Source of the DNA: Fusobacterium varium
Lineage (GTDB): Bacteria; Fusobacteriota; Fusobacteriia; Fusobacteriales; Fusobacteriaceae
Assembly (NCBI GenBank): GCA_002356455.1
Contig: AP017968.1
Span: 3,844,001-3,908,000, forward strand
DNA length: 64,000 nt
Direction: 5' to 3'
The notes under the pieces were generated by a model. It had not been told where the DNA came from. It was given only the letters and a program-made list of their open reading frames with translations, and ran no database searches. A program made the position numbers and the translations under genes. This document shows positions 41,030-49,127 of the stretch, piece by piece; the first letter of the stretch is position 1, and every line of letters begins with the position of its first letter.

Positions 41030-41689
41030 TTAGAAATTGAATTTGTACCCAATTGATAGTGTTACTCTTGAATAGTCTAAATCATCTTTAATTCTTTCAT
41101 TATAATTATTCATTTCTACTTTAGCTTTATTTATTTTATACATTAAATCTATTACAAAATTATTATACTCAGCTCCTGCACCAATTCCATAATATAATCC
41201 ATTTTCTACTTTTGTAAGAAGCTCTCTTGAATAACCAGGTTCACTAGCTTTTGAAGATGCAGTTTTAATAACTTTAAAGTTCCCCCTTTCATCATTAAAT
41301 GAATATCCTAAATCTGCTTTTAAATATGGTTTAATATTTCCTTTCACAGGAATGTTATACTTAGCTGTTATATATATAGGAACTGATTTATAACCAGACA
41401 TTTCATATTTTTCACTAAAGTTATTAGAACTTGTTTTAGGGTCACCATGATCTTGATAAGATAATCCAAATCCTAGTTCTAAATTAGAATATACCTCTCT
41501 CATTACTTCCACTGTCAGTTCATAACCAAAATCATCTCCCTTTTCTTTATTTAATTTTAAGGTATTATATTTTGTCTCATCAAATCTTTGAAGTATATCT
41601 GCTCCTGCTTTTAAATATACATTTGTTCCTTCTGCTGCCAAGCTTACACATGATAATGCTGCTAATCCTAATAATACTTTTTTCATCAT
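41030..41689 (-). CDS. Outer-membrane beta-barrel protein 1 (phase-variable candidate)
   Basis: 219 residues. The signal peptide MMKKVLLGLAALSCVSLAAEG is followed by amphipathic strands alternating aromatic and polar residues (VYLKAGADILQRF, YGIGAGAEYNNFVIDLMYKI), ending SRVTLSIGYKFNF with the terminal Phe recognised by the BAM machinery. The size fits an eight-stranded barrel of the OmpA/opacity type. It is paralogous to 46684-47379. I start it at ATG 41689 because the same ribosome site AAAGGAGAG precedes both. No fixed strong promoter was found; the best one lies in the invertible segment at 41792-41951 and points away. Confidence 0.88.
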   Translation of the reverse strand: MMKKVLLGLAALSCVSLAAEGTNVYLKAGADILQRFDETKYNTLKLNKEKGDDFGYELTVEVMREVYSNLELGFGLSYQDHGDPKTSSNNFSEKYEMSGYKSVPIYITAKYNIPVKGNIKPYLKADLGYSFNDERGNFKVIKTASSKASEPGYSRELLTKVENGLYYGIGAGAEYNNFVIDLMYKINKAKVEMNNYNERIKDDLDYSRVTLSIGYKFNF

Positions 41690-41765: not shown

Positions 41766-41977
41766 GTTCTTCTTTAGGTATAAAAGCGAACTTTTAATTA
41801 AATATATTTCATATAAAAATTCTGTTTTTAAGTTTTTTTTAAAAAAATTTTTAAAATAAAATTTAAATTTCATTTGCTTAACTATGTATTTTGTGTTATA
41901 AAATTAATATAGAAATATAGATTGTTTTGCTCTGTTTGTTTATAAATTTATGTTCGCTTTTATACCTAAAAGGGAAC
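41766..41977. promoter_or_regulatory. Putative invertible promoter upstream of barrel gene 1
   Basis: Two 26-bp sites at 41766-41791 and 41952-41977 lie in inverted orientation. Their inner 19 bp are exact reverse complements (left TTTAGGTATAAAAGCGAAC). Each site is itself a dyad of form GTTC-N18-GAAC. Between them are 160 bp holding a plus-strand promoter, TTGCTT (41874-41879), 17 bp, TATAAA (41897-41902). As assembled it points towards the terminator at 42011-42045, away from the barrel gene; inversion would aim it at the gene. The same design occurs at 47462-47673. Inversion itself is inferred. Confidence 0.75.
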
Positions 41978-42010
41978 TCTTGATATTTTTTAATTTTTGC
42001 GAATAAATTA

Positions 42011-42045
42011 AAAAGACCAGTTGACAATTTATCAACTGATCTTTT
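42011..42045. terminator. Terminator after brnQ, facing the invertible promoter
   Basis: AAAAGACCAGTTGA (42011-42024) pairs with TCAACTGATCTTTT (42032-42045). It ends brnQ on the minus strand and, on the plus strand, would stop transcripts from the OFF-oriented promoter. Confidence 0.85.
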
Positions 42046-42054
42046 CATATTTTG

Positions 42055-46683: not shown

Positions 46684-47379
46684 TTAAAAATTAAATTTAT
46701 ATCCAACTGATAATGTTACTCTTGAATAATCTAAATCTTTCTTAAATCTCCCCTCATCTGTATTGGCTTTTATTTCAGCTTTATTTATTTTATACATTAA
46801 ATCTATTACAAAATTATTATACTCTGCTCCAGCTCCTATTCCATAATATAGCCCATTTTTTATTTTTACTGAAACTTTTTCATCCTCAAAATAATCATAT
46901 GTTGCGTCTGAACCTCTAAAAGTATATTTAGCATCTCCATTATCACTATTAAAAGAATATCCTAAATCAGCTTTTAAATATGGTTTGATATTTCCTTCTA
47001 CTGGAAAGTTATACTTAGCTGTTACATATAAGGGAACTGATCTAAAACCTGGAATTTCATATTTTTCATATCCTGTGCCAATGGCACCTCCATCTCCTTC
47101 AAATTCTCCACTTTTTTTTATAGATTTTGGATCTCCATGATCCTGATAAGATAATCCAATCCCTAACTCAAAATTGGGATAAACTTCTCTCATTACTTCC
47201 ACTGTAAGTTCATAACCAAAGTCATCCCCTTTATCTTTGTTTAGCTTTTCTCCATCATATTTTACCTTATCAAATCTTTGGAACATATCTGCCCCTGCTT
47301 TTAAATATACATTTGTTCCCTCTGCTGCCAAACTTACACATGATAATGCTGCTAATCCTAATAATACTTTTTTAAACAT
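46684..47379 (-). CDS. Outer-membrane beta-barrel protein 2 (phase-variable candidate)
   Basis: 231 residues, paralogue of 41030-41689. The signal peptide MFKKVLLGLAALSCVSLAAEG and the strands near both ends are almost identical, including TNVYLKAGAD and GLYYGIGAGAEYNNFVIDLM, ending VTLSVGYKFNF. The central loops differ and are longer (for example GSDATYDYFEDEKV), as expected for surface-exposed variable loops. I start it at ATG 47379 behind AAAGGAGAG. The upstream segment 47462-47673 is a second putative invertible promoter, also pointing away. Confidence 0.88.
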   Translation of the reverse strand: MFKKVLLGLAALSCVSLAAEGTNVYLKAGADMFQRFDKVKYDGEKLNKDKGDDFGYELTVEVMREVYPNFELGIGLSYQDHGDPKSIKKSGEFEGDGGAIGTGYEKYEIPGFRSVPLYVTAKYNFPVEGNIKPYLKADLGYSFNSDNGDAKYTFRGSDATYDYFEDEKVSVKIKNGLYYGIGAGAEYNNFVIDLMYKINKAEIKANTDEGRFKKDLDYSRVTLSVGYKFNF

Positions 47380-47461: not shown

Positions 47462-47673
47462 GTTCTCTTTTGTGTATAAAAGCGAACTTTTTAATATTTT
47501 TAATTTTACATTAAAAATAGTTTTAAAGGTATTTATAAGTACTTTAAAAAGAATTGAATACAAATTCGAATTGATTAATTGGAGATTTTATGTTATAAAT
47601 AAGTATAGGATTAGATAGTATTTTAATCTCTTTTTATATAAATTTATGTTCGCTTTTATACACAAATAGGAAC
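47462..47673. promoter_or_regulatory. Putative invertible promoter upstream of barrel gene 2
   Basis: Inverted 26-bp sites at 47462-47487 and 47648-47673 share a perfect 19-bp arm (left TTTGTGTATAAAAGCGAAC) and the GTTC-N18-GAAC form. They bound exactly 160 bp, the same as at barrel gene 1. Inside, TTGATT (47571-47576), 17 bp, TATAAA (47594-47599) points plus, away from the barrel gene. The arms differ from those of locus 1 at two adjacent central positions, and both arms carry the change. Confidence 0.75.
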
Positions 47674-47706: not shown

Positions 47707-47737
47707 AAAGGCCAACTGAAAATTTCAGCTGGTCTTA
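47707..47737. terminator. Terminator after the diguanylate cyclase, facing the invertible promoter
   Basis: CCAACTGAAA and TTTCAGCTGG form a tight stem with T-rich flanks on both strands, between the cyclase stop and the promoter switch. Confidence 0.8.
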
Positions 47738-47747
47738 TTTTTATATA

Positions 47748-49127
47748 TTATTTATCTTTCCAGAAAGCATATCCATCTCTTCCTCTGTTTTTTACTGTAT
47801 ACAAAACTGTATCAGCTTCATCACAAAGTTTTTCAAAAGTTTTTTCATTCCCATTCCAAAATGATATCCCCATACTGCATGTTATTTTCCTGCCTTTTTT
47901 ATTAGGTATATCTATTTCATTTATTTGGTTCCTTAATTTATTTATATATTCTTCTAAATGTTTTATATAATCAGCATTATATAATAGAATACAAAATTCA
48001 TCTCCCCCAAATCTTCCTACTATTCCATTTTTTCTAAATAAGTTCATAAGTATTTCAGCTACTTTTATTAAAACCATATCTCCAAAAAGATGTCCATAAC
48101 TGTCATTGATAGCTTTAAAATAATCTACATCCAATATAATAAAAGCTCTCAAAGAGGTGTCATCTGATTTTTTTAATTTTTCTTTTATGTGAGTAATTAC
48201 TGTTCCTTTATTATATATTCCTGTCATTATATCAAGTTCTGATCTGAATTCCATTTCTTTAGAATATTTTCTCACAAAAATCAATACTACCATTATTAAA
48301 AAAATCAACGAAATAGATGAAATAGAAAATTGCATTCCAATATGTAAAAGTTCCTTCAATAAAGACTTACTCAAAGTAACTCCGCTTTCTGCCAGCACCA
48401 TTTTCATTCTTGTAAAAAAATGATATGATAAACTCATAACTAAGATAACTATTATTCCTATAAAGACCAATAATATTTTATTGTTTTTTTCTTTTCTTTG
48501 GGATATTTCAACTATTCTTATCTGTCTTTGAAATCCTTTGATTTTTTCACTATCACTTATCATATAAATGGTAAGCAATACTCCAACTGAAGTTGTTACA
48601 TAAATTATATTATTAAGTTTAAAAGTTTCTGTAAATGTACTTAGTGGAGTCATACCAAGATTTGGAAACAAAAAATATAAAGCTGTATAAACTAAAAAAG
48701 AATGTATATAGGCACTTATTACAGTTATCACAGTAATAGCTGCTTTTTTATATTTATTCCATTTTATCATTTCAAATAGAATTCCTGATAAAAATCCAAA
48801 TGCCATCCTTGTTCCCATACTAAGTATAGTACTTGATACTGGAGTTCCACTAATAAAAGGAGAAAATATATAGTCTGTATATGCAACTCCTAATATAGAA
48901 GCTTTCCACATACTTGTAAGTCCAAAGATACCTCCTAGTACCATTCCTTCAAAAGGTCCTAGAAAAAAAGCTCCTGCTATTACAGGAATATGCATCAATG
49001 TTACTGTAAACGGTTTCATTTCAATATATCCTAAGGGTGAAAATGCTAAAAGTAATTCTATTGCAACCATCACTGAAAACTTATATAAATATAATGGATC
49101 ATCTTCTCTTTTTATTCTCTTTCCCAT
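47748..49127 (-). CDS. Membrane diguanylate cyclase with ECF S-component-like sensor
   Basis: 459 residues. Residues 1 to about 190 hold six hydrophobic segments in which LLLAFSPLGYIEMKPFTV followed by HIPVIAGAFFLGPFEGMVLGGIFGLTSM resembles the vitamin-binding S-component of ECF transporters. A further helix pair follows (about 215-290), with a short extracytoplasmic stretch between, then a GGDEF domain (about 300-459) with GGDEF at 374-378. The usual inhibitory RxxD is degenerate (RKNG). It should make cyclic di-GMP in response to a small ligand or membrane signal. Monocistronic, with a terminator before the second promoter switch. Confidence 0.85.
   Translation of the reverse strand: MGKRIKREDDPLYLYKFSVMVAIELLLAFSPLGYIEMKPFTVTLMHIPVIAGAFFLGPFEGMVLGGIFGLTSMWKASILGVAYTDYIFSPFISGTPVSSTILSMGTRMAFGFLSGILFEMIKWNKYKKAAITVITVISAYIHSFLVYTALYFLFPNLGMTPLSTFTETFKLNNIIYVTTSVGVLLTIYMISDSEKIKGFQRQIRIVEISQRKEKNNKILLVFIGIIVILVMSLSYHFFTRMKMVLAESGVTLSKSLLKELLHIGMQFSISSISLIFLIMVVLIFVRKYSKEMEFRSELDIMTGIYNKGTVITHIKEKLKKSDDTSLRAFIILDVDYFKAINDSYGHLFGDMVLIKVAEILMNLFRKNGIVGRFGGDEFCILLYNADYIKHLEEYINKLRNQINEIDIPNKKGRKITCSMGISFWNGNEKTFEKLCDEADTVLYTVKNRGRDGYAFWKDK

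Follow-up and report, generated by a model that had tools for sequence, protein, structure and literature searches.

The closest described counterpart of the promoter switches analysed here is the mpl family of Mycoplasma penetrans, in which, as here, many surface-protein genes each have an invertible promoter of their own, the short inverted repeats differ from gene to gene and one recombinase is implicated (PMC3047005, in the part of its text available). However, M. penetrans belongs to another phylum, and its mpl repeats are 12 bp long whereas the sites of Fusobacterium are 26-bp dyads. The mpl promoter inversions were reportedly described by Horino in 2009, with MYPE2900 as the recombinase. 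The fim, hyx and ipu elements of Escherichia coli (recombinases FimB, FimE, FimX, IpuA and IpuB) likewise combine tyrosine recombinases with short promoter segments, and ipuS of uropathogenic E. coli drives an autotransporter, according to the sections available of PMC6083910. In contrast to the three elements of E. coli, which have recombinase genes close by, Fusobacterium has dozens of switches and a recombinase gene that is mostly elsewhere.

In two further systems a single enzyme serves scattered loci, as is proposed for the present one, according to the accessible portion of PMC5903667: in Bacteroides fragilis one master enzyme, Mpi, inverts at least 13 scattered regions including polysaccharide loci, and in Clostridioides difficile the tyrosine recombinase RecV acts at several switches that are unlinked and have differing repeats. 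Mpi belongs to the serine recombinases, whereas the matched 6-bp block of the Fusobacterium sites fits a tyrosine recombinase; the C. difficile switches, seven in number, have mostly unrelated repeats, whereas Fusobacterium uses one site motif with a changing overlap. Among the open-access papers searched, no title or abstract describes invertible promoters, invertons, phase variation or DNA inversion in Fusobacterium, and in the available text of PMC11892184, an inverton survey of a defined gut community, the string 'fusobact' is absent. The switch set is apparently undescribed so far, and multi-promoter inversion itself has its precedent in M. penetrans.

The two barrel-gene switches of the window

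The window (the whole 64,000-nucleotide stretch of Fusobacterium varium DNA that was analysed) contains two outer-membrane barrel genes, each with a pair of inverted sites:

46684-47379, minus strand: barrel gene 2, outer-membrane beta-barrel (PF13505, from Pfam)
47462-47487, minus strand: left 26-bp recombination site of switch 2 (GTTCGCTTTTATACACAAAAGAGAAC read outwards), from sequence and arm pairing
47472-47477, minus strand: 6-bp centre ATACAC of the left site of switch 2, the putative overlap, from sequence
47571-47599, plus strand: promoter-like TTGATT-17-TATAAA of switch 2, facing away from barrel gene 2 (OFF) and conserved across five barrel switches
47648-47673, plus strand: right 26-bp recombination site of switch 2, from sequence and arm pairing
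47658-47663, plus strand: 6-bp centre ATACAC of the right site of switch 2, from sequence
47712-47732, minus strand: terminator-like stem-loop outside the right site of switch 2, on the minus strand only in the terminator scan
41030-41689, minus strand: barrel gene 1 (PF13505, from Pfam; product 68% identical to barrel 2)
41766-41791, minus strand: left 26-bp site of switch 1, centre ATACCT at 41776-41781, from sequence
41874-41902, plus strand: promoter-like TTGCTT-17-TATAAA of switch 1, directed away from barrel gene 1 (OFF), from sequence and conserved
41952-41977, plus strand: right 26-bp site of switch 1, centre ATACCT at 41962-41967, from sequence
42009-42047, both strands: terminator-like stem-loop outside the right site of switch 1, from the terminator scan

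The arms of switch 2 are 26 nt each, inverted with 160 nt between them and 88% complementary, and the 26-bp sites of switch 1 have the same 160-nt spacing. Read outwards from the segment, the sites are GTTCGCTTTTATACACAAAAGAGAAC and GTTCGCTTTTATACACAAATAGGAAC at switch 2 and GTTCGCTTTTATACCTAAAGAAGAAC and GTTCGCTTTTATACCTAAAAGGGAAC at switch 1; in this reading the centre is ATACAC in both arms of locus 2 and ATACCT in both arms of locus 1. The preliminary description of the window, which had claimed that locus 2 repeats the design of locus 1 and that TTGATT-17-TATAAA points away from barrel gene 2, was right on both counts, coordinates included. The terminator that it placed opposite is clear at locus 1, where both strands are listed, and weaker at locus 2, where only the minus strand is. 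Its proposal that gene and switch were duplicated together is supported; TTGATATTTTTTAATTTT occurs outside the right arm at both loci, and the two barrel proteins are 68% identical.

A strict promoter scan lists the barrel promoters of neither switch 1 nor switch 2, because it requires T as the final base of the -10 element. These putative promoters are called from their conservation, with TG ahead of the -10 element, across five barrel switches. A putative diguanylate-cyclase gene (47748-49127, judged GGDEF-like by eye) shares the strand of barrel gene 2 and stops immediately short of switch 2, and the switch 2 promoter in the OFF state faces its 3′ end in antisense.

A family of paired 26-bp sites

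The two switches of the window are members of a large family of promoter switches, with at least 104 inverted pairs of one 26-bp site in F. varium (G000, 28 pairs) and three sister species (G008, 24; G009, 28; G010, 24) and 13 further sites that are unpaired. Each site is an imperfect dyad (GTTC...GAAC), and each pair bounds a short segment that usually bears a promoter and mostly lies beside surface genes; promoter-like sequences resembling TTGACT-17-TATAAT were found in most segments by crude scoring.

With positions 13, 14 and 16 left free, the site pattern has 121 matches in the F. varium genome, summed over both strands so that one dyad site may count twice, where the reversed control has 3, which excludes a chance origin; the three sister species have 86-109 matches against 3-4. 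Matches in the other eight genomes of the genus are near the control level (nine against three in G011). When up to two mismatches were allowed across 96 genomes of the order, the four species had 63-99 matches and the other 92 genomes 0-2. Scans of genome contigs for the site pattern and for relatives of the recombinase were both empty, in a set that may omit records near the window.

For pairing, stretches around the sites were taken and inverted partners were sought by a score blind to the centre, all six positions of which were left free. Initially 102 candidate pairs were obtained, of which 95 had matching centres and 7 did not. Six were dropped by score or by hand, namely five non-matching pairs with an arm that did not resemble the site or with a wrong partner, and one matching pair (G000:3637670), and the G009 barrel pair was added by hand, leaving 97 pairs of which 95 matched. 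Of the two that did not match, G008:1702158 had been joined to its partner by chance and was removed and re-paired. Eight pairs in all, including G008:1702158 and G000:3637670, were set by hand or by best inverted match, a final step that leans towards matching because it looks at the centre.

The genes beside the 104 pairs, in crude classes drawn from N-terminal signatures, are 53 autotransporter-like, 10 sugar transferase, 6 HU-like, 5 small barrels, 3 MBOAT acyltransferase, 2 Wzz-like or other and 15 other genes, while 10 pairs have no open frame of 100 amino acids within 700 bp. Pfam, run on ten F. varium proteins, backs the autotransporter, HU-like (Bac_DNA_binding), MBOAT, sugar transferase and barrel classes in the examples tested. 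Promoter flipping would govern many surface genes of four species (autotransporters, capsule-type sugar genes and outer-membrane barrels), and a genome or transcriptome from one culture may therefore show one of many surface states.

In one subfamily of sites, AAA replaces TTT in one or both arms (GTTCGCAAAAGTATAT...) and the centres are still matched (G008:C1:196089, 497153, 998560, 1702158, 2493510, 2531178, 3183458 and 3448377). Pairs of small HU/IHF-like genes follow switched autotransporter genes (L082 8004-8559 and 12635-13187; L080 5980-6535; L081 10407-10956), and their products could possibly be helper proteins for inversion or silencing. At L076 7407-13999, one switch with a 207-bp segment heads what appears by eye to be an operon of HU-like, lipoprotein, FadA-like and autotransporter genes.

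Matched centres within a switch

Positions 11-16 of the site are identical between the two arms in 103 of the 104 pairs, with 16 different 6-bp centres. Among distinct arm pairs, 79 of 80 match, compared with 10.5 on average and 22 at most when partners were shuffled (10,000 shuffles); when the eight hand-set pairs are left out, centres match in 95 of 96. Just outside the centre the arms disagree more often, at position 10 in 12 and at position 17 in 14 of the 104 pairs, and the matched block is therefore 6 bp. At positions 7, 20 and 22 they disagree in 61, 56 and 44 pairs; the arms are therefore not merely recent copies of each other. For strand exchange by tyrosine recombinases the overlaps must agree over 6-8 bp, and for that by serine invertases over 2 bp. 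The claim of the preliminary description that the arm centres agree within a locus and differ between loci (ATACAC versus ATACCT) is strongly supported by these pairs from four species, and its claim that strand exchange needs identical overlaps is supported. It had also asked whether, genome-wide, each pair has a centre of its own and a barrel gene beside it; the arms agree in the same 103 pairs, and such a barrel gene accompanies 5 of the 104.

Each locus is very probably a promoter flip-switch run by a trans-acting tyrosine recombinase with a 6-bp overlap. The 26-bp site would consist of an arm of about 10 bp, the 6-bp overlap and another 10-bp arm, with two inverted copies bounding the promoter segment. 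A recombinase acting in trans would cut both sites at either edge of the overlap and exchange strands, turning the segment so that its promoter points towards the surface gene (ON) or away from it (OFF). The exchange would be completed only between identical overlaps, which would hold the two arms of a given switch to the same overlap even as that overlap drifts from one switch to another.

Within the centre, T at position 12 is constant (80 of 80 distinct arm pairs), as is A at position 15 in 79 of 80, the sole exception being locus 1 of the window, which may be weakened by the missing A15. The only mismatched pair, G010:C1:1564473-1564649 (L187), has the centres ATGTAT and ATAGAT and sits between neighbours of each centre kind. 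A mosaic origin was considered for it and rejected: in comparisons with seven neighbours or relatives the mismatches are spread along the segment, with no clean junction. The overlap rule thus has a test in nature in this pair, which under the rule should be frozen.

Centres have changed in both arms together. The barrel switches have ATACAC in F. varium, ATACAT in G010, ATATAC in G008 and G009 and ATACCT at the sister locus, in both arms in every case, and F. varium autotransporter switches whose segments are 94% identical have either ATACAT or ATCCAT, again in both arms. Clustering of the segments (single linkage at 75%) implies at least 13 such concerted changes. Self-complementary centres are rare, with 1 among 39 cluster-by-centre combinations as against 9.8 expected from column shuffles (P 0.0001); counted over just the 16 distinct centres, their shortage does not reach significance (P 0.098). 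A symmetric central pair of bases is flanked by non-complementary outer bases in 9 of 10 cases, and an asymmetric central pair by complementary outer bases in 21 of 29. Asymmetric overlaps would fit directional inversion, because a symmetric overlap would let the sites align either way. Arm bases 17-18 are swapped (TA/AT) between the near-identical switches G000:C1:1739892-1740068 (L082) and 687848-688024 (L201), as if exchanged at the overlap edge by past recombination.

These patterns could be read as an address code, by which one recombinase would run the 24-28 switches of each species: the 10-bp arms would be fixed, the overlap would have the form NTNNAN, its free bases would set the partners and its asymmetry would restrict the outcome to inversion, with new addresses arising by concerted change and with partial insulation between switches. 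This proposal is tentative and somewhat less likely to hold than to fail. On an alternative account of comparable standing, which falls a little short of an even chance, past inversions homogenise the overlap through heteroduplex resolved at replication, unlike overlaps are not blocked, and the centres drift neutrally with no isolating function. It is favoured by the sharing of the centre ATACAT among 12 of the 28 F. varium switches and by the finding that, of 12 neighbouring pairs of switches less than 12 kb apart, 2 share a centre where 2.6 are expected, so that no choice of centres to make neighbours differ is seen. The same figures tell against the suggestion of the preliminary description that different centres isolate neighbouring loci, a role that is weaker than the matched-overlap idea and is not supported in the form proposed. 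Yet homogenisation still requires inversion across mismatched overlaps, and both the scarcity of self-complementary centres and the occurrence of just one unlike pair among 104 point to functional constraint; homogenisation and the blocking of unlike overlaps can both hold. Under the flip-switch model with its overlap rule, the rule can be tested at scale with the sixteen natural overlaps of one site, which would also provide ready-made, partly orthogonal sites for one small recombinase.

Inversion and the candidate recombinase

Both orientations of a segment are observed in the family. The TTGTAA switch before a sugar-transferase gene (polysaccharide) at G008:912837 has its segment reversed relative to nine other copies, with 95-97% identity of the reversed segment to G008:287995 and G008:2355475 in the same genome and 82-88% identity to seven copies in G000, G009 and G010. 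The flanks on both sides are colinear in all nine comparisons, although G009:488180 aligns over only 51 bp on the gene side. The invertible promoter proposed in the preliminary description is thereby supported for the family, and for the barrel switches no flipped copy was found among the five aligned, all of which have the promoter directed away from the gene (OFF). In the family as a whole, 64 of the 104 segments were scored clearly OFF, 9 clearly ON and 21 unclear, and 10 had no gene call; 64 of the 73 clearly scored segments thus point away from the gene. The scoring is crude, in that two barrel segments were scored weakly ON whereas alignment places the promoter away from the gene in all five.

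The single orientation of the five barrel switches is what would be expected if the two in the window were fossils locked OFF while other family members still flip, and this reading, though improbable, gains from the decay of one arm at its ends in each of the G008 and G009 barrel switches and from the break in the otherwise constant A15 at locus 1. However, the two arms of each barrel switch still have the same centre, altered in concert from species to species, and most of the clearly scored switches of the family are OFF as well. On the flip-switch reading, the two barrel switches of the window would still invert today.

The F. varium genome has 13 matches to tyrosine recombinases and 6 to the resolvase family, two of the latter being small genes on plasmid C3. 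The candidate enzyme is a tyrosine recombinase of 198 amino acids (G000:C1:3156432-3157025, with an identical second copy at 3237238); PF00589 spans its residues 10-184, and at about 200 amino acids it consists of the catalytic domain only, as do Fim-type enzymes. The catalytic R, HxxR, H and Y of the candidate and its paralogues align with those of solved XerA-type enzymes. Orthologues with 80-90% identity are present in G008, G009 and G010 (80-100% across the four site-bearing species), while the best match in the other eight genomes of the genus is 51%; sites and an orthologue of 80-100% thus co-occur in the same 4 of 12 genomes of the genus. From this co-occurrence, the 198-residue protein is probably the recombinase that acts on these sites, although the several other tyrosine recombinases among the 13 matches tell against it. 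A paralogue with 74-76% identity is present in G000, G008 and G009, and was not found intact in G010.

At the seven loci of candidate and paralogue genes examined, no 26-bp site lies within about 1.5 kb, so that the enzyme would act in trans. One copy of the candidate lies about 3.5 kb from a switch; otherwise it is not beside its switches, and the Fim-type placement of a recombinase gene beside its switch is absent at all seven loci.

The length and dyad form of the sites resemble those of hix-type sites, and six resolvase-family genes are present, the two small plasmid C3 genes among them, so that the work might be ascribed to a serine invertase like Hin or Mpi, with 26-bp dyad sites and a 2-bp overlap. 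This is highly unlikely, since an overlap of 2 bp would impose no match at positions 11 and 16, where loci differ from one another but the arms of a locus always agree, and since the tyrosine candidate tracks the sites over 12 genomes, a comparison of distribution made for the tyrosine candidate alone. It is least likely of all, to the point of rejection, that the 26-bp dyads are operators at which a dimeric repressor loops DNA over the promoter with no inversion, as imperfect dyads flanking a short promoter-bearing segment might suggest, because operators do not need matched asymmetric inverted centres, yet 103 of 104 pairs have them, and because one member is reversed between colinear flanks.

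A block of about 5 kb containing the candidate recombinase gene and a partial autotransporter operon is present twice in F. varium (L063 1-6309 and L064 2151-7115, at G000:C1:3152000 and 3232000), with transposase-like genes at its edges.
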